From the NCBI GenBank assembly GCA_000495735.1, contig AYMD01000009.1, positions 34,575 through 98,574 of the forward strand: a stretch of DNA of 64,000 nucleotides, given 5' to 3'. The position numbers and the translations under genes were made by a program. Shown piece after piece: positions 3,954-12,024 of this stretch. How positions within the stretch are numbered: the stretch's first letter is position 1; each line of letters begins with the position of its first letter. Source of the stretch: an uncultured Acidilobus sp. JCHS (lineage in GTDB: Archaea > Thermoproteota > Thermoprotei_A > Sulfolobales > Acidilobaceae). The notes under the pieces were generated by a model. It was not told the origin of the DNA, searched no databases, and worked only from the letters and a program-made list of their open reading frames with translations.

Positions 3954-5027
3954 TTAGATAACCTCAGCCGCCCTCCTTACTATGGGGTCCGTGAACTCGA
4001 GCCTCTCGTCTACTATTGAGTGCCTCCTGAGGGCGCCCAGGACCTCGTGCAGGGCCCTGTCGCTCACCTCCCTGCCCTCGCGCCTCTCAAGCTCCCTCTT
4101 TAGATCCCCCCAGCCCCTGACCCCTGACGCCAGGAGCCTCAGGACCGTCCTATACCTCCCGCTAGCCCTAGTGGCCATGAACTCCTCGAGCTCCCTCCTG
4201 GCCAGGGCCACGGCCTCCCTGACGACTTCTTCAAGGTTCTTCCCCCCTATTGACCTCTCGTAGCCGTAGTACGTCAGCCACCCCACGACCCCATCTAGCT
4301 CCCTCACTGCCTCCTCAAGCTCAGCCTCTGGGACGCTCACGCCAACCTCCCTGAACCCCCTCCTGAGGAACTCCAGGGACTCCCGGTCGCTCAGCCTCCT
4401 GGTGTTGACCTCGGCGTAGGCCCTACCGTAGAGGGGCGAGCCTGGGTCGCCCAGGACGCCCTCAAGGACCCCTACCTCTGAGCCCGAGAGTACTATGACG
4501 AGGCCCTCAAGGAAGTCGTAGGCGTGGGCCAGGGCGTTCCAGACCTCATGCCCGATGGGACCGACCAGCCTCTGGGCCTCGTCTATGACGAGCGGCAGCC
4601 TGACGCCAACCCTTGAGGCGGCCTCGTCCAGCTCCCTGAGGAGCTCGCTCATCGTAGGCCTGTCCCTTCCCCAGCTCAAGGAGACCTCAAGGCCTGCGAC
4701 CCTGACGCCCCTCACGGCCTCGAGAGCCCTCCTGAGCTCGGCCGTGACCGGGCTCCTGAGCCTCAGGAGGTCGTTGATAGCCCTCTCGAGGGCCATGTAG
4801 AGCCCCCTCCTTGACCTTACGACCTCCCTGACGTCGATGAACGCGTAGGGGGAACCAATGCTGTTAAGCGCTGTAAGTATGAGCGACGTCTTGCCAGTCC
4901 TCCTGAGGCCCTTCACCGCTATGAGCCTCGTCCTGCTGTCCCCTAGAAGCTTCGTCAGCCTGCCGAGCTTCTCGTCGAAGTCGAAGAGGTCCTCCCTCCT
5001 GGCCTTTGGTCTGAGGTCAAAGAGCAA
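3954..5027 (-). CDS. Archaeal-type STAND ATPase, paralogue 1
   Basis: 357 residues. An AAA/STAND ATPase of the archaeal ATPase_2 type: Walker A GLRRTGKTS (about 40-48), Walker B LPLVIDEAQRL (about 145-154), sensor region LVIVLSGSEVG, then a helical region and a C-terminal segment (about 285-357) that looks like a winged helix (YRTVLRLLASG...LGALRRHSIVDE...). The N-terminus MLFDLRPKARREDLFD is nearly identical to that of paralogue 3 (10969-12024). Start is TTG at 5025-5027, directly behind two palindromes (5028-5061) and a TATA-like TCTTTAAGC. Function of the family is not established; nucleotide-dependent DNA binding or a defence/selfish role are possibilities. It is divergent from XPB. Confidence 0.85.
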   Translation of the reverse strand: MLFDLRPKARREDLFDFDEKLGRLTKLLGDSRTRLIAVKGLRRTGKTSLILTALNSIGSPYAFIDVREVVRSRRGLYMALERAINDLLRLRSPVTAELRRALEAVRGVRVAGLEVSLSWGRDRPTMSELLRELDEAASRVGVRLPLVIDEAQRLVGPIGHEVWNALAHAYDFLEGLVIVLSGSEVGVLEGVLGDPGSPLYGRAYAEVNTRRLSDRESLEFLRRGFREVGVSVPEAELEEAVRELDGVVGWLTYYGYERSIGGKNLEEVVREAVALARRELEEFMATRASGRYRTVLRLLASGVRGWGDLKRELERREGREVSDRALHEVLGALRRHSIVDERLEFTDPIVRRAAEVI

Positions 5028-5061
5028 GCTTCCGCCCCGGAAGTTACTTTCGGGGCGGAAG
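5028..5061 (-). promoter_or_regulatory. Tandem palindromes at ATPase 1 start codon
   Basis: On the minus strand, two copies of a CTTCCG-GGG-CGGAAG-like palindrome: the gene-proximal copy CTTCCGGGGCGGAAG ends one base before the TTG start; the distal copy is in the opposite orientation of its G run (CTTCCGCCCCGAAAG). They are separated by TAA. The TATA-like TCTTTAAGC (about 5062-5070) abuts the distal copy, so the pair covers the transcription start and leader. Equivalent arrays precede the two paralogues. Confidence 0.75.
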
Positions 5062-5117
5062 CTTAAAGACTATCAACGGCCAGGCCAGCCCCGTCCCTCA
5101 GATCGGGAGGATTCTAA

Positions 5118-5134
5118 TTAACCGGGGAGTTAAC
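5118..5134. repeat. TAACCGGGGAGTTAAC motif, copy 1 (ATPase 1 / XPB intergenic)
   Basis: 17-bp inverted repeat TTAACCGGGGAGTTAAC: TTAAC/GTTAA arms around CGGGGA. It lies between two divergent genes, about 34 bp upstream of the XPB TATA box (CGATAAAAGG, 5168-5177). The same 16-bp core recurs at 9292-9307 and 22477-22493, again only between divergent genes. Probable protein binding site. Confidence 0.6.
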
Positions 5135-5209
5135 ACGTCATTGGCCCTTCCGGGGCCCAGGCCCTAGCGATAAAAGGCCTCTTGACGCTCTAGGCTGCTG
5201 AGGAAGCGC

Positions 5210-6550
5210 TTGGCCACGCTCAGGTACTACAGGGGCCTGCTGACCAGCGACGTCCCGGCCCCCGGCCTGAGGTACGACCAGAGGCTGGGCCTCTACGTGG
5301 GCCTCCCCTACAAGTACAGGGAGGTGCTGGAGTACCTTAGGTCATCGGGCCTCAGGGTAGAGGACAGGGTCCTCAGGCCCCTCCCCTTCCCCCAGCCGGC
5401 TAGGACATCACTGCCCCTAAGGGACTACCAGAGGAGGGCCGTCGACGCCTGGGAGGCTGCGGGCAGGAGGGGGGTGGTGGTCCTCCCTAGCGGGGCGGGG
5501 AAGACGCTGGTGGGCCTTGAGGCCGTCCTCAGGGTGAAGGCCGCGACGCTTGTCGTTGTGCCGACCATAGACCTGCTGGACCAGTGGAGGAGGGCCTTCT
5601 CAGCTAGGCTGGGCCTCGAGGCCTCGGTGCTGGGGGGAGGCGAGGAGGGGGTCTCGGGGGTCACAGTAACTACCTACAGCAGCGCCTACTCAAGGGCAGA
5701 CGAGCTCGGCGACAGGTTTCACCTGGTCATATTTGACGAGGTCCACCACCTCCCGTCGCCGAACTACATGGAGGTGGCCCAGCTTCTGGCGGCCCCCTAC
5801 AGGCTGGGCCTGACGGCAACCCCCGAGAGGGAGGACGGAAGGCACGAGCTCCTGCCCGACCTGGTGGGCCCCATAGTGTTCAGGCTCTCCCCTGCTGACC
5901 TCAGGGGCAGCTACCTGGCCGACTACGACGTTAAGAGGGTCTACGTTGAGCTGACCGACAGCGAGTACTCGAGGTACCTAGAGCTCAGGAGGAGGCTCTC
6001 GGAGGACCTGAGGGAGCTGGGGATCACGCTGAGGAGCCTTGACGACTTCCACAGGCTCCTCTCCATGGCGGCCAGGAACAGGGTGGCAAGGGACGCCGTC
6101 GAGGCCTGGTACGAGTCCCTCAGGCTCGCGGTGAACTCCGAGGCCAAGGTTGAGAAGGTGAGGGAGCTGCTGAGGGAGCTTAAGGACGAGAAGGTGCTGG
6201 TCTTCACGAGGGACACGGAGATGGCCTACAGGCTCTCAAGGGAGCTCCTGGTGCCTGCTGTCACCTACAAGACGCCTAAGGAAGAGAGGGCCGAGGTCCT
6301 GAGGGCCTTCAGGGAGGGGAGGTACAGGGTCATAGTTGCCTCAACGGTCTTCGACGAGGGCGTTGACGTGCCCGACGCCTCTGTGGCCATAGTAGTAGGC
6401 GGCTACGGGACCTCCAGGCAGCTCATACAGAGGCTGGGCAGGGTCCTCAGGCCGAAGGGCGGCAAGAGGGCCCTCCTGATAGAGCTCGTGACCAAGGGGA
6501 CGGCTGACTACAGGCTCAGCGCGAGGAGGAGGCGCGGTGCTGAGGTCTAG
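5210..6550 (+). CDS. xpb: XPB/Rad25-type SF2 DNA helicase
   Basis: 446 residues. Archaeal XPB: N-terminal damage-recognition-like region (1-65), motif Q-like LRDYQRRAVDAW, Walker A LPSGAGKT (about 92-99), DEVHHL (176-181), motif III GLTATPER, and C-terminal motifs V/VI (STVFDEGVDVPDA, RQLIQRLGRVLRP). XPB unwinds DNA in repair together with Bax1, whose gene follows with a 14-base overlap. TTG start at 5210; TATA box at 5168-5177 fits a leader of about 10-15 bases. The inverted repeat at 5118-5134 is a candidate control site. Confidence 0.92.
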   Translation: MATLRYYRGLLTSDVPAPGLRYDQRLGLYVGLPYKYREVLEYLRSSGLRVEDRVLRPLPFPQPARTSLPLRDYQRRAVDAWEAAGRRGVVVLPSGAGKTLVGLEAVLRVKAATLVVVPTIDLLDQWRRAFSARLGLEASVLGGGEEGVSGVTVTTYSSAYSRADELGDRFHLVIFDEVHHLPSPNYMEVAQLLAAPYRLGLTATPEREDGRHELLPDLVGPIVFRLSPADLRGSYLADYDVKRVYVELTDSEYSRYLELRRRLSEDLRELGITLRSLDDFHRLLSMAARNRVARDAVEAWYESLRLAVNSEAKVEKVRELLRELKDEKVLVFTRDTEMAYRLSRELLVPAVTYKTPKEERAEVLRAFREGRYRVIVASTVFDEGVDVPDASVAIVVGGYGTSRQLIQRLGRVLRPKGGKRALLIELVTKGTADYRLSARRRRGAEV

Positions 6551-8003
6551 CCTGGTCAGGCTCAGGAGGACTGGGGAGGGGGAGGCGAGGGTAGTATTCG
6601 CGAGCGAGGAAGACCTGCCGGCCTTCGAGGACGTTATAGCGCACTTCAGGCAGGGCCTCAGGCTAGGGGAAGTGCTCGAGTCCCTCAAGCCCCTCAGGAG
6701 GGTCTACGACCCCAAGCTGGTTGACGGCATAGCCTTCGTAGTAATGAGGCGCGTGGAGCTTGAGACCCCCTCTCCCGTAGACCCGAGGCTGATAAGGAGG
6801 GCCCTGTTCGAGGGAGGGCCTGCCCTTGATGAGGCCGAGAGGGAGGCCAGGCTGAGGGAGGTCTCAGCCAGGCTGGGAGTTGACGCGGCTAAGTACATGT
6901 ACTCAGACCTAGACATAGAGAGGGTCATAACGTACGTGTCCGAGCTGAGGCCCGATGAACTGCTTAGGGAGTACAACCTTGCCGCCCTCCAGGGCCTCAC
7001 GCTCAGGGCCCTCAGGGTCAGGGTTCAGGCATCGTCGGGCTGGAGGGAGGTGCTGAGGGCTGCCAAGAGGCTTGGCCTTATGTACGAGGCCCACGGAAGG
7101 CCGGCAGCTGTTGAGCTCTACGGGCCCGCCTCGCTGGCCAGGCTGACCGAGAGGTACGGAAAGGCGCTGGCCAGGCTGGTCCCCCTCATAGTCTCCAGCA
7201 AGGGGTGGCGGCTCGAGGCCGAGGTAATGGTAGGCAGGTCGGGGAGGGTCTACAGGGTCAGGGCCCAGGAGGGCGAGGCCCCCATGCCCTCGTCCCCGAG
7301 GCGCGAGGAGGTGACCTTCGACAGCTCTGTCGAGGAGGAGCTCTACAGGAAGCTGGTCAGCGCCCTGAGGGGGACGGGGGCTGAGGTGCTGAGGGAGCCT
7401 GAGGCGCTTGCCACTGAGGCCGGGGACCTCTTCATACCTGACTTCGGCGTCAGGCTGGGGGACAGGGTCGTCTACATAGAGGTCGTGGGCTTCTGGACAA
7501 GGGAGTACCTTAGGTCGAAGCTGAGGAAGCTCTCTTCCCTCAGGGCGCCTGTCCTGCTGGTGGTGAATGAAAAGCTGGGGCCCGAGAGGTTCGCGGGCCT
7601 GGGCGAGGGGGTCGTTGTCTACAGGGACTCTGTTGACGTCGCCCCGGTCTACCTCTGGGTCAAATCCAGGCTCCTCCAGGGGGCGCCTCAGGCCACGGCC
7701 CCGGCGAGGCTTGAGCTTGAGAAGCCCTATGAGAGCCTTGAGGAGGTGGCCTCGAGGCTCGGCGTTAGCGTCGACGCCCTGAGGTCCCTCGAGCCCCCGA
7801 GGGGCTACGTGAAGCTTAGGAGCTACTTTGTGAGGGAGGAGCTGCTGAGGGCGCTGGCCAACGAAAGGCTGGAGGGCGCAAGGCTCTCCCAGCTGTCGTC
7901 AAGGTACGGGCCCTGGGTCCAGGAGGCCCTGACCTCCATGGGCTACTCGCTCTCCTGGGTCGGCCTGACGGACGCGATAGTAAGGAGGAAAGCCCAGCCC
8001 TGA
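6537..8003 (+). CDS. bax1: Bax1, XPB-associated nuclease (DUF790)
   Basis: 488 residues, translationally coupled to xpb (GTG at 6537 lies inside the last codons of xpb). It has the Bax1/DUF790 layout: an N-terminal region with multiple Arg/Leu-rich helices, then an endonuclease-like core around residues 255-370 that contains VPDFGVRL-like IPDFGVRLGDRVVYIEVVGFW. The D and E-x-V residues of this stretch fit a PD-(D/E)XK-type site. Bax1 binds XPB and cuts bubble and fork DNA in archaeal nucleotide-excision-type repair. Gene order xpb-bax1 is a conserved archaeal pair, which strengthens both calls. Confidence 0.88.
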   Translation: MLRSSLVRLRRTGEGEARVVFASEEDLPAFEDVIAHFRQGLRLGEVLESLKPLRRVYDPKLVDGIAFVVMRRVELETPSPVDPRLIRRALFEGGPALDEAEREARLREVSARLGVDAAKYMYSDLDIERVITYVSELRPDELLREYNLAALQGLTLRALRVRVQASSGWREVLRAAKRLGLMYEAHGRPAAVELYGPASLARLTERYGKALARLVPLIVSSKGWRLEAEVMVGRSGRVYRVRAQEGEAPMPSSPRREEVTFDSSVEEELYRKLVSALRGTGAEVLREPEALATEAGDLFIPDFGVRLGDRVVYIEVVGFWTREYLRSKLRKLSSLRAPVLLVVNEKLGPERFAGLGEGVVVYRDSVDVAPVYLWVKSRLLQGAPQATAPARLELEKPYESLEEVASRLGVSVDALRSLEPPRGYVKLRSYFVREELLRALANERLEGARLSQLSSRYGPWVQEALTSMGYSLSWVGLTDAIVRRKAQP

Positions 8004-8033
8004 CGTAGCCGCGCGGAGGGTCCCGCGGGCCGC

Positions 8034-9236
8034 CTAGGAGCTGACGACGTCAGGCGACGTCGACCTCTTCTCGGCCTCCTTCTCTGCGGCCCGCTGGCCC
8101 TCGACTCTCACGACCTCAGCTCTGCCCACCACGTAGACCTCGGCCCCCTCTATGAGCCCCCTGTAGTCAAGCCCCATGGTCCTCTCCGCCTCGTCAACCT
8201 CCTCAGGACTGGCCCTCGTGGTTGACTCCTGGGCGACCGCACAGTACTCGGGCACGCGGGCCGATATGTCGTAGGTCCCCACCCTCCTGGCCAGGGCCAC
8301 TATCTCGTCCTTGTCCATGCCTATGAGGGGCCTCAGCACGGGCAGGGATACGCCCCTCTCCTCGGCCTCAAGGTTCCACATGGTCTGGGAGGAGACCTGT
8401 GAGAGCGACTCCCCAGTCGTTATTGAGTGGGCCCCGACCGCCCTGGCGAGCGCTTCCGCGAGCCTGTACATGACCCTCTTGAGGGCGACGACCCTCAGGT
8501 ACCCCTTAACGTTGGTAAGGGCTGAGAGCACGGGGAGGCTGTCAACGAAGTAGACCCTCAGGTCGTGGGCCCCAGACCAAGCCCTGAGCACCTTTGCCTC
8601 CTCAAGCACTGCCCTCCTGTGCTGCTCCCTCCCTAGGGCCAGGTTCAGAATGACGGGCACGACGCCCCTCTTCATCATCATCCATGTGGCCACCGGCGAG
8701 TCTATGCCCCCCGAGACCAGGGCGACCGTCTTGCCCGCCACACCCACAGGCAGCCCCCTGGCGCCCTCCCTCGGGTTAACGTAGACGTAGGCGAGGCCCC
8801 TGGACCTCACGTCTACATGGACCTCCACCTCAGGGGACTCTAGGTCAACCCCCGCCGAGAGGGGCCTCAGGGCAGCCCCCAGCTCCCTGGCCACGTCAAG
8901 GCTCGTGAACCTGTCCTCCCCAAGCCTCCTGGCCCTGACGGCGAACCTCCTGCCCTTGACTGTTTCAGAGAGGAGCTGGGAGGCCCTGGAGACCAGGTCA
9001 GCCAGGTCTGAGTAACTGACCTCTGCGGCCGTCGCGTAGTGGGCTATGCCGAAGACCCTTGAGAGGGCCGAGGGGTCCCCGTCCACTTCAAGGATTAGGA
9101 CGCCTCCCTCAGCAGACCATGACCTGAGCTGGACCACAGCGCTGACGTTCCTCACGAGCTCCCTTACCATCCGTGACCTCGTTGACCTGCCCTTTATCCC
9201 AATCTCGCCGGCGAGCGTCGCGACTACTAGGGTCAC
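8034..9236 (-). CDS. thiI: ThiI, tRNA 4-thiouridine / thiazole sulfurtransferase (archaeal form)
   Basis: 400 residues. N-terminal ferredoxin-like and THUMP domains (about 1-165), then a PP-loop ATP pyrophosphatase domain with VALVSGGIDSP (about 171-181) and a late YCAVAQ cysteine motif. The rhodanese domain of bacterial ThiI is missing, as is usual in archaea. The enzyme adenylates U8 of tRNA for thiolation and may also serve thiamine thiazole synthesis. GTG start at 9234-9236. The gene is divergent from ATPase 2; the 55 bp upstream carry copy 2 of the TAACCGGGGAGTTAAC motif. Confidence 0.85.
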   Translation of the reverse strand: MTLVVATLAGEIGIKGRSTRSRMVRELVRNVSAVVQLRSWSAEGGVLILEVDGDPSALSRVFGIAHYATAAEVSYSDLADLVSRASQLLSETVKGRRFAVRARRLGEDRFTSLDVARELGAALRPLSAGVDLESPEVEVHVDVRSRGLAYVYVNPREGARGLPVGVAGKTVALVSGGIDSPVATWMMMKRGVVPVILNLALGREQHRRAVLEEAKVLRAWSGAHDLRVYFVDSLPVLSALTNVKGYLRVVALKRVMYRLAEALARAVGAHSITTGESLSQVSSQTMWNLEAEERGVSLPVLRPLIGMDKDEIVALARRVGTYDISARVPEYCAVAQESTTRASPEEVDEAERTMGLDYRGLIEGAEVYVVGRAEVVRVEGQRAAEKEAEKRSTSPDVVSS

Positions 9237-9291
9237 GGCGCTTCAAGCTGTTCAGGCCGGGCCGAGGGTAAAGGGCTTGTTCACGCCGCGC

Positions 9292-9307
9292 TAACCGGGG
9301 AGTTAAC
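9292..9307. repeat. TAACCGGGGAGTTAAC motif, copy 2 (ThiI / ATPase 2 intergenic)
   Basis: Exact 16-bp copy of the core seen at 5119-5134. It lies 55 bp from the thiI start and about 40 bp upstream of the ATPase 2 TATA box. Probable shared regulatory site. Confidence 0.6.
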
Positions 9308-9354
9308 GAAGACATTCTCTGAAGGTCGTTTGCTAGGAGCAGAAAGACTTAATT

Positions 9355-9388
9355 TTGCGGGTACCCGCAAATTGCGGGTACCCGCAAA
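9355..9388 (+). promoter_or_regulatory. Tandem palindromes at ATPase 2 start codon
   Basis: Two exact, head-to-tail 17-bp copies of TTGCGGGTACCCGCAAA (9355-9371 and 9372-9388), each containing the perfect palindrome TTGCGGGTACCCGCAA. The second copy abuts the TTG start at 9389. A TATA-like GACTTAATTTT (about 9347-9356) abuts the first. The layout matches the arrays at the other two ATPase paralogues although the sequence differs. Confidence 0.8.
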
Positions 9389-10522
9389 TTGGTGTGGTTC
9401 GTCTACGGGCTCCCGACCGACAGGCCCTTCGGGAGGGACTCTGAGGTAAGCACGGTGGCCAGGCTCCTCGGGGAGGGCCAGCCCGTGGGCCTCCTGGGCC
9501 CGAGGAGGATAGGCAAGACCTCAATTCTCCTCGCCTCCCTCAAGGCCTCAGGCCTCCCCTACGTCCTGCTCTCGGCAGAGGAGTTCGTCAGGGGGGAGAG
9601 GAGCTTCGACCTGACGGAGTTCCTCTCGGCCTTCGTGAGCAGGGTGACGATGGCAGCTTACTCCAGGGCCGGCCTTAGGCTCAGGCTTGAGGAGAGGGCG
9701 AGGGGGTACCTGAGGCTCCTCAGGGACCTCATAGGGGCGATTAAGGTCACTTTCGACATACCTGAGGTCACGGCCACCATAGAGCTCGTCCTTGACAAGG
9801 GGGAAAGGGGGAGGGACCTCAGCGGTGACCTGGCCCAGGTGCTCGACCTGCCCCAGGTCCTGGCTGAGAGGCTGGGCTTAAGGCTCGTCATAGCCATAGA
9901 CGAGTTCCAGTACCTGAGGTACGCGAGGCAGGCGGCCCCCGAGGTCCTTCACGTGATGAGGAGCAGGTGGCAGTTCCACAGGTCCGTCTCATACGCTATC
10001 TCCGGCTCAGCCGTGGGCATGCTGAGCGAGATGGTGGGCTCAAGGGACCAGCCCTTCTACCAGTTCTTCTACATGATTAGGGTGAAACCCTTTGACAGGG
10101 AGACCTCGATCAGGTTCCTTAAGGAGGGGTTCAGGGCAGAGGGGGTCAGCGTTAACGAGGCCGACGTAGAGAGGATAGTTGACTACGTTGACGGCCTCCC
10201 CGCGTGGCTCAACCTCGTCGGCATAAAGGTCGTCAGCGAGCGGAGGGGCGTTGAGGAGGTCCTCTCGTCCCTGCCCTCGGACGTCAACGTGGTGACGGCC
10301 ATCGAGGACGACCTCAGGAAGCTCTCGCCCTCGGCCAGGGCGGCGCTGAGGAGGCTTGCTGAGCTCGGGGGCGAGGGGTCGCCGAGGGACCTCGGCGGGA
10401 GCCCCTGGGCTGCCCAGAGGGCGCTGGGCCAGCTGATAAGGTACGGCTACGTGGAGAGGACAGGCAGGGGGACCTACAGGGTCGTTGACCCCATGGTTGT
10501 CCACTACCTTGCTAGAAGCTGA
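9389..10522 (+). CDS. Archaeal-type STAND ATPase, paralogue 2
   Basis: 377 residues. Same family as 3954-5027 and 10969-12024, but more divergent: N-terminus MVWFVYGLPTDRPFGRDSEV, Walker A GPRRIGKTS (about 37-45), Walker B LVIAIDEFQYLR, sensor AISGSAVG, and a C-terminal winged-helix-like segment (LSPSARAALRRLAELG...RYGYVERTGRGTYRVVDP). Start could be TTG 9389 or GTG 9392. The stop codon TGA (10520-10522) is also the first three bases of repeat copy 1, so the natural C-terminus may have been trimmed by a few residues; it ends ...VVHYLARS. The leader holds tandem palindromes. Confidence 0.83.
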   Translation: MVWFVYGLPTDRPFGRDSEVSTVARLLGEGQPVGLLGPRRIGKTSILLASLKASGLPYVLLSAEEFVRGERSFDLTEFLSAFVSRVTMAAYSRAGLRLRLEERARGYLRLLRDLIGAIKVTFDIPEVTATIELVLDKGERGRDLSGDLAQVLDLPQVLAERLGLRLVIAIDEFQYLRYARQAAPEVLHVMRSRWQFHRSVSYAISGSAVGMLSEMVGSRDQPFYQFFYMIRVKPFDRETSIRFLKEGFRAEGVSVNEADVERIVDYVDGLPAWLNLVGIKVVSERRGVEEVLSSLPSDVNVVTAIEDDLRKLSPSARAALRRLAELGGEGSPRDLGGSPWAAQRALGQLIRYGYVERTGRGTYRVVDPMVVHYLARS

Positions 10523-10755
10523 CGGCCCCCCGCCCTTAATGACGGGGGCTCTGCGCCCACTGGGGCCTTCCCATCACCTCTCAGGCGCCCCCACGGGCGC
10601 GGCATCACAGCTTCAGGCCCCGCCGTCAGTCCCAGGGAGGCGCGGGCTCATGGCATGCTAAGCTCGCCCGCACCCAACTCCGCAGCAAGGTTTGAGCAAA
10701 GGCCTATAAACGCTCATATCCTCCCCGCCCTTTAGGGCGAGGCCTCCTTGCTTGG
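10520..10755 (-). mobile_element. 235-bp repeat family, copy 1 (probable miniature IS605-type element)
   Basis: A 236-bp block shared with 34069-34302 and 52828-53058 at high identity over its whole length. On the minus strand it begins CCAAGCAAGGAGG, passes a terminal hairpin (CGCCCTAAAGGGCG), a conserved TATA-like GCGTTTATAGGCC, and about 150 bp of GC-rich conserved non-coding sequence, and ends with a second hairpin around CCCCCGTCATTAAGGGCGGGGG and CCGTCA. Two end hairpins, no inverted terminal repeats proper and no target duplication fit a non-autonomous IS200/IS605-type element. A structured RNA transcribed from the TATA box is an alternative. Confidence 0.65.
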
Positions 10756-10924
10756 TGATGATCGTGAGGGCTGCGGCTAGGCCTGCCCACCGCTATGAGG
10801 GCTGGACGGCGACGAGGCCTGCCGCAGGCCTATCAACCACCATGTGAACAGACCCTTTTACCCTCCTGCCCTTGACGCTGACCTCCGAGGGCCTTCCCCT
10901 CATACCGAGGCCTGATGTCTAAGC
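10756..10924. other. Gap between repeat copy 1 and the ATPase 3 promoter
   Basis: No credible gene. It contains a perfect inverted repeat AGGCCTGC-C-GCAGGCCT at 10815-10831, which could be a transcription terminator stem or operator. A minus-strand frame of 36 codons (about 10787-10897) has no recognisable motif and is not called. Confidence 0.4.
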
Positions 10925-10934
10925 GTATTTAAGG

Positions 10935-10968
10935 TTCTGGGGCAGAAGTTAACTTCTGGGGCAGAAGC
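10935..10968 (+). promoter_or_regulatory. Tandem palindromes at ATPase 3 start codon
   Basis: Two exact copies of TTCTGGGGCAGAAG (10935-10948 and 10954-10967), 19 bp apart, joined by TTAAC; the second ends one base before the ATG. Each is a CTTCTG/CAGAAG palindrome around a G run. TATA-like GTATTTAAGG (10925-10934) abuts the first copy. The sequence is clearly related to the array at ATPase 1, matching the closer similarity of those two proteins. Confidence 0.8.
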
Positions 10969-12024
10969 ATGCTCTTTGACGAGAGGCCCAAGGAGAGGAG
11001 GGAGGACCTTTTCGACAGGGAGGCCGAGCTGGCGGCAATAATGGACAACATCAACAGGCCGCTCCTAGTGCTGAGCGGCGTGAGGAGGATAGGCAAGACC
11101 TCGCTCCTCCTCGTGGCCCTTAACGAGCTGGGGCGCGACTACATTTTAATTGACGCGAGGGAGCTCAAGGCCAACTACGGAAGGAGGGACCTCTACTCCC
11201 TCCTGTCCAAGGCCCTCTCCTCAAGGCTGTCGAGGCTAGCCGACGTGCTTAGGGGGATAAGGGGCATCAACATAATGAGCAACTACGTAGAGATAAGCTG
11301 GAGGGGGAGGGACTACATAAGCCTGGCAGAGCTATTTGACGCCCTCAACAGGAGGAGGCTGATAGTGGCCATAGACGAGGCCCAGAGGCTTAGGGGCCCC
11401 ATGGGGGCTGAGCTCAGGGAGGCCCTGGCCCACGCCTACGACTACGACAGGAACCTCACCTTCGTGCTCACAGGCTCGGAGGTCGGGCTCCTCCACGAGC
11501 TCATAGGCGTTGACGACCCGTCCTCCCCCCTTTACGGCAGGTACTACCACGAGGTCCAGCTGGGCAGGTTCAGCGAGGAGCAGTCAGCGGAGTTCCTCAG
11601 GAGGGGCTTTGAGGAGGCCGGGCTCAAGGTCGGCGAGGAAGTGATTGACGAGATGGTGAGGCTCTTCGACGGCATCCCTGGCTGGCTCACCTTCGCTGGC
11701 AACCAGTACCTGGCCGCGAGGAGCCTTGAGGAGGTCAGGGAGAGGGCCATAGGGGTCGCCCTGAGGGAGCTGGAGAACCTGGTAGAGGAGAAGTCTAGGG
11801 CCTCGCCCTCAGCCGGCAGGAGGTACAGGCTGGCCCTCAAATGCATAGCGGAGGGCAGGGACTCATGGTCGTCGCTTAGGAGGTGCGTTGAGGAGGGCGA
11901 GGGGGTCACGCTGTCATCGAGCGTGCTCGACAACGTCCTGAGGACCCTTGAGAGGCTGAGCATAGTTAAGGACTATGAGTTCCTCGACCCTGTGTACAGG
12001 GAGGCCGCGAGGAGGCTCAGGTAA
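10969..12024 (+). CDS. Archaeal-type STAND ATPase, paralogue 3
   Basis: 351 residues, the closest relative of paralogue 1 in the window (MLFDERPKERREDLFD against MLFDLRPKARREDLFD). Walker A GVRRIGKTS (about 37-45), Walker B LIVAIDEAQRLRGP, sensor FVLTGSEVG, and a C-terminal winged-helix-like part (YRLALKCIAEG...LERLSIVKDYEFLDP). ATG at 10969, one base after the tandem palindromes. No operon partner; the downstream gene is on the other strand. Molecular function is unknown. Isolated, self-contained genes with private operators suggest autoregulation. Confidence 0.85.
   Translation: MLFDERPKERREDLFDREAELAAIMDNINRPLLVLSGVRRIGKTSLLLVALNELGRDYILIDARELKANYGRRDLYSLLSKALSSRLSRLADVLRGIRGINIMSNYVEISWRGRDYISLAELFDALNRRRLIVAIDEAQRLRGPMGAELREALAHAYDYDRNLTFVLTGSEVGLLHELIGVDDPSSPLYGRYYHEVQLGRFSEEQSAEFLRRGFEEAGLKVGEEVIDEMVRLFDGIPGWLTFAGNQYLAARSLEEVRERAIGVALRELENLVEEKSRASPSAGRRYRLALKCIAEGRDSWSSLRRCVEEGEGVTLSSSVLDNVLRTLERLSIVKDYEFLDPVYREAARRLR

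Follow-up and report, generated by a model that had tools for sequence, protein, structure and literature searches.

Archaeal PF01637 ATPase genes carry paired palindromes, distinct for each paralogue, between TATA box and start codon and are probable self-regulators

The archaeal STAND ATPases SSO1545 and PABY2304 (Protein Data Bank entries 2fna and 2qen) are members of the same family (PF01637), with the same domains including a C-terminal winged helix, as three ATPases encoded in a 64,000-nucleotide stretch of DNA (the window) from an uncultured Acidilobus sp. JCHS, in which each ATPase gene is preceded by an array of two palindromic units. In the literature searched we found no description of a promoter array or of autoregulation for SSO1545-type ATPases, although an earlier description is possible. 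Among better-described systems, the STAND regulators MalT and IniR also join a STAND ATPase to a DNA-binding domain under nucleotide control, and MalT (8bob) is among the fold matches; IniR is a signal transduction ATPase that binds a promoter (PMC5760070). These two activate other operons, carry sensor repeats, and use different DNA-binding domains, whereas ATPases of the window type have no sensor repeat domain and their sites were found at their own promoters only. Orc1/Cdc6 initiators share the AAA+ module, the winged helix, and DNA binding (predicted for the proteins studied here), and one of them (2qby) is a fold match; unlike them, the ATPases described here have short, alternating half-sites in their promoters that are specific to each paralogue, and they occur in many copies per genome. 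Autorepressors with palindromic operators, such as the antitoxins of toxin-antitoxin systems, resemble these genes in placing their own paired palindromes over their own promoter, but the genes analyzed here stand alone without a partner, encode an ATPase body, and form a paralogue family with one distinct operator per gene.

The window is part of contig C9 of a crenarchaeal host genome of 1.48 Mb, and coordinates are given as positions within it. ATPase 1 (3954–5027, minus strand, TTG start) matches PF01637 (Pfam E 5.7e-11), and its C-terminal winged helix is supported by a match to the MCM_C winged helix-turn-helix domain (E 4.7e-9). ATPase 2 (9389–10522, plus strand, TTG start; Pfam E 6.8e-13) is a divergent member of the family, in which an AlphaFold2 model (predicted local distance difference test (pLDDT) 87) places a C-terminal winged helix consisting of helices 314–325, 332–335, and 339–351 and a two-strand wing. 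ATPase 3 (10969–12024, plus strand, ATG start) is of the SSO1545 type, aligning with 2fna over residues 1–337 (phmmer E 4.8e-60) and matching 2qen with an E value of 7.7e-52; its AlphaFold model (pLDDT 97.4) has a winged helix made of helices 280–294, 300–311, and 317–329 and short strands. The family scores of the three proteins are 43.1, 49.4, and 68.5 bits against a curated cut-off of 33.2. In fold comparisons, ATPase 3 matched 2fna (template modelling (TM) score 0.88) and 2qen (TM 0.84) far ahead of the next match, Cdc6/Orc1 on origin DNA (2qby, TM 0.51), and Orc1/Cdc6 was rejected as its best match. STAND-class proteins have a motif resembling hhGRExE at the N terminus, and their NTPase domain ends in a GxP motif. 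ATPase 3 has FDREAEL and DGIPGW at these places, and the consensus of 60 homologues is DLFDRExEL and DGIPGWLTY, the G of the first motif usually being D. We found no sensor repeats (WD40, TPR, LRR) and no effector domain in ATPase 3, which at 351 residues ends after the winged helix with no further Pfam domain. The three genes of the window all encode PF01637 ATPases of the archaeal STAND type, relatives of 2fna/SSO1545.

The promoter of ATPase 1 reads, on the minus strand toward the TTG at 5027, CTTTAAG-CTTCCGCCCCGAAAG-TAA-CTTCCGGGGCGGAAG-C-TTG. Its TATA-like element (CTTTAAG, 5062–5068) agrees with the family rule of an AT-rich 8-mer right before unit 1; the unit beside the TATA box (CTTCCGCCCCGAAAG) occupies 5047–5061, and the unit beside the start codon (CTTCCGGGGCGGAAG), as read from the sequence, occupies 5029–5043, 18 bp away from center to center. 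On the plus strand, the TATA-like element of ATPase 2 (CTTAATT, 9348–9354) is followed by TTGCGGGTACCCGCAA-A-TTGCGGGTACCCGCAA-A-TTG, in which a perfect 16-bp palindrome (9355–9370) is repeated as a perfect copy 17 bp downstream (9372–9387) and the TTG lies at 9389. The promoter of ATPase 3, also on the plus strand, reads TATTTAAG-GTTCTGGGGCAGAAG-TTAA-CTTCTGGGGCAGAAG-C-ATG, with the TATA-like element at 10926–10933, unit 1 at 10934–10948, unit 2 at 10953–10967, a center-to-center spacing of 19 bp, and the ATG at 10969. The initial annotation had proposed a pair of palindromes between TATA box and start codon at each of the three genes, and we obtained the same coordinates and the same spacings of 18, 17, and 19 bp. 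Its unit sequences and positions also stand, with one correction: the upstream unit of ATPase 1 has the opposite polarity and one mismatch, and the ATPase 1 array is therefore a single 39-bp inverted repeat. An array is most accurately viewed as a row of four half-sites whose orientation alternates every 9–10 bp.

To compare upstream regions, sequences were scored for four matching half-sites, that is, two palindromes of like sequence, with a cut-off of 24. The arrays of ATPases 1, 2, and 3 score 25, 28, and 25; among 64-base control windows, a score of at least 25 was reached by none of 2440 shuffles and none of 364 windows further upstream, and by 0.16% of the 1220 windows taken from coding sequence. 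A first collection comprised the PF01637 matches from 40 related genomes, each with its upstream DNA (39 of the 40 carry some, with up to 29 matches per genome). Here 42% of 112 upstream regions scored at least 24, compared with 0.2% of shuffles, 2.2% of window tiles, and 0.9% of coding windows. The arrays are concentrated in two clades, the SSO1545 type (63%) and the proteins fused to DUF234 (52%), while all other PF01637 proteins are at 3% and so serve as a built-in negative control. The shuffles, the further-upstream and coding windows, and this array-free clade rule out a chance origin of the arrays.

The ATPase_2-DUF234 proteins (PF01637 plus the PD-(D/E)XK-like PF03008) form a sister clade in the same genomes and share the paired palindromes, but their units are spaced 14–16 bp apart and the protein ends in a DUF234 domain (from the Pfam annotation of one member). 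Several such loci (L060, L062, L082, L131, and others) encode nuclease-like relatives with palindrome pairs of their own, for example TACTTTAAAGTACAGTACTTTAAAGTAC. Separately, in one lineage PF01637 ATPases have expanded into a group that differs at the C terminus and lacks arrays (loci L033–L049, mostly in genome G025).

Two further collections extend these results. When ATPase 3 was used as the query against 200 genomes of its phylum (Thermoproteota), relatives were found in 72; of 122 genes whose translation starts were fixed by alignment, 66% scored at least 24 in 64-base windows, compared with 0.3% each of shuffles, further-upstream windows, and coding windows. Translation and transcription starts are predictions throughout. 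The third collection, 60 genes new to the analysis on GTDB contigs from Thermococci, Korarchaeia, Bathyarchaeia, Hadesarchaea, Caldarchaeum, and others, reached the cut-off in 80% of cases, against 0 of 177 control windows; with so many lineages represented, the arrays are widespread in archaea. Thus, paired palindromes recur upstream of homologues, and the clades bearing a winged helix-turn-helix are not array-less. The layout observed in these genes is constant (TATA box, unit, about 3 bp, unit, start), while the half-site varies from gene to gene. Of 107 genes, 63 have units 19 bp apart from center to center, and nearly all fall within 16–20 bp; unit 2 ends 0–3 bases before the start codon in most genes, and roughly half have a TATA-like 8-mer immediately next to unit 1. 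Relatives of ATPase 2 carry arrays of their own, most with a common GGTACC center.

The arrays are also private, a term used here for the distribution of sites. No other copy of the ATPase 2 palindrome exists in the 1.48-Mb genome with up to three mismatches, and with up to one mismatch no sites for the units of ATPases 1 and 3 were found beyond their own promoters. Across 13 genomes, the GTATCA-type unit occurs at ATPase promoters, apart from two unpaired one-mismatch matches (L357, L362) without an array. Two degenerate paired-operator patterns applied to 398 genomes retrieved 23 arrays, 23 of 23 directly before an ATPase start, while a reversed control pattern retrieved none in the same genomes. 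By location and by exclusivity, then, each operator is found at the promoter of its own gene. One of the 23 arrays precedes an ATPase 3 orthologue from the same genus that is disrupted by an early frameshift (L123/L413, G003:C1:650965 onward) and retains an intact operator pair. A second CTTCTAGGGGTAGAAG pair on contig C11 was considered as a separate target and rejected, as it precedes a duplicate of the same ATPase; this duplicate (L091 4091–4313, G000:C11:5650 onward) is interrupted by a run of N.

The initial annotation had also proposed that the winged helix of each protein reads its own array and that operators and proteins diverge together. Covariation was analyzed in 102 non-redundant genes, in which the Mantel correlation between operator distance and domain distance was 0.31 for the winged helix, 0.28 for the NTPase domain, and 0.24 for the lid; the partial correlation of the winged helix with the operator, with the rest of the protein held constant, was 0.17. 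We then regressed out whole-protein distance and ranked 332 protein columns, in ATPase 3 numbering, by how well each tracks the half-site. The best three were S316, L320, and S318, and S317 and N322 were also in the top 12, so that 5 of the top 12 columns fall within one 9-residue helix (hypergeometric P 2.8e-6). The non-helix columns have the same phylogeny and act as a control for this test. Residues 316–320 open helix 317–329, which is predicted to be the recognition helix because it is the third helix of the winged helix; the codons for residues 315–329 lie at 11911–11955 on the plus strand, and residues 316–322 track the half-site. The pairs of helix and half-site include SSSVLDN with TTCTG, SDRxLYE with CTTYCG, PKxxLTR with GTTCCG, TNAxxTR with GTATCA, and DDKxVTEL with CTGGGTA. 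For 52 genes outside the training set, with the comparison restricted to relatives of less than 40% identity, the gene with the nearest helix predicted the half-site with a value of 0.53, compared with 0.39 for the rest of the protein and 0.42 for random choice (p 6e-6). The predicted correlation between half-site and recognition residues was therefore borne out, and what the proposal anticipated for homologue arrays, for helix tracking, and for arrays only before ATPase genes held as well.

Based on these results, we consider it very likely that each gene encodes a DNA-binding ATPase acting alone as a self-regulating switch, under private negative autoregulation by its own winged helix. In the mechanism we propose, the C-terminal winged helix would read a half-site of 6–7 bases, and four protomers (two dimers or a tetramer) would occupy the four alternating half-sites from TATA box to start codon. 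With the TATA box right before unit 1, initiation is expected at the beginning of unit 2, so that a bound array, lying right next to the TATA box on its downstream side and spanning the predicted transcription start, would cover the polymerase site and block RNA polymerase; negative autoregulation is predicted on this ground. Oligomerization and release would most likely depend on which nucleotide the STAND-type ATPase domain holds; we infer both the four protomers per array and the nucleotide-controlled release from the STAND type of the protein. Because half-site and helix change together, each paralogue is expected to control its own promoter only.

Several points weigh against this interpretation. 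The half-sites CTTCCG, CTTCTG, and CTTCTA, all present in the host genome of the window, differ by one or two bases, and cross-talk is therefore possible. The Mantel correlations are modest, with the winged helix (0.31) close to the NTPase domain (0.28), and the permutation tests overstate independence because the homologues are phylogenetically related. When closer relatives were allowed for the same 52 genes, helix and rest of the protein did not differ significantly as predictors of the half-site; the idea that the helix is always the best predictor was rejected, as this holds for distant relatives only. Finally, that the arrays serve repression rather than activation is a prediction from their position.

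Among other explanations, the palindromes could form RNA hairpins at the 5' end of the mRNA that control translation or stability, with the G-run of unit 2 as a ribosome-binding site. Unit 2 does lie just before the start codon, and of 100 genes, 62 have GGG in the coding strand of this unit and 5 have CCC (52 and 11 for unit 1), so that unit 2 may double as a ribosome-binding, Shine-Dalgarno-like element. However, the four half-sites can be paired in six ways, and conservation is the same for all of them (4.9–5.2 of 6) whether or not the pairing would form a hairpin, which fits four protein-binding half-sites and not hairpins. In addition, the TATA position predicts a transcription start downstream of unit 1, a perfect palindrome such as GTTACCTAGGTAAC has no room for a loop, and the half-sites track a DNA-recognition helix. 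Control by RNA hairpins is, we believe, improbable.

Slightly less probable still is a role of the arrays as replication or partition sites, with the ATPases as Orc1/Cdc6-like initiators that bind beside their own genes. Archaeal origins often lie beside cdc6 genes, and the combination of an AAA+ ATPase with a winged helix, together with the fold match to 2qby, is compatible with such a role. Yet genomes contain from several to more than 20 PF01637 genes, the arrays overlap a TATA-to-start layout of fixed geometry, no unwinding element was seen, and no relative was found in viral contigs.

We assign the same low likelihood to the explanation that the genes are selfish or mobile modules whose palindromes are excision or insertion sites, with self-control as a by-product. 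Gene turnover, which favors it, is real: in genome G001 (L351 1900–2600) thiI and the pyruvate phosphate dikinase gene lie about 100 bases apart and ATPases 2 and 3 are absent, in G002 (L344, G002:C1:935637 region) a remnant joins part of the XPB-like helicase gene (5278–5449 of the window) to part of the ATPase 1 gene (4204–4488) at 96–97% identity, and contig C11 carries the duplicate. On the other hand, no palindrome copy was noticed on the 3' side within the window, the array keeps a fixed place in the promoter, neither an integrase nor any other partner is conserved, and the covariation with the recognition helix fits regulation. The earlier suggestion of selfish or defense modules may hold but is not supported by these data: genes do turn over, but there is no conserved partner gene (the largest neighbor cluster spans 5 of 57 loci), no relative was found in viral contigs (IMG/VR), and candidate defense matches are weak (PADLOC candidates PDC-S27/PDC-S01, best E 3.7e-7, with the ATPase domain as the likely source of the match). 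A defense role of the ATPases is possible. That a third-party cellular regulator binds the arrays is hardly credible, given that the arrays differ from paralogue to paralogue within one genome, were found nowhere but upstream of ATPase genes, and change together with the recognition helix of the ATPase itself.

Archaea are rich in PF01637 ATPases, for which we found no role in the literature searched. A paralogue-specific array that tracks the recognition helix offers a handle on function, in that the ATPases look like DNA-reading self-regulators, and it predicts binding sites at well over 100 genes. The collection lends itself to work on a recognition code for winged helices and is a source of candidate orthogonal switches for thermophilic archaea. 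STAND proteins use a winged helix as a structural arm. More tentatively, with the odds somewhat against it, the family could amount to a set of one-gene switches spread across the archaea and insulated from one another, in which each STAND ATPase would be its own repressor, a stress or invader signal acting on the ATPase domain would release that gene only and the winged helix would be a working sequence-specific reader, with a code leading from helix residues 316–322 to the half-site.

Two other features of the window lie near the three genes. An XPB-like helicase gene followed by a gene for a DUF790 protein occupies 5210–8003. A hairpin (CCCCGCCCTTTAGGGCGAGG, 10723–10746), which we take to resemble the ends of IS200/IS605 elements, lies between ATPases 2 and 3, and similar hairpins are found near loci L057 and L102.

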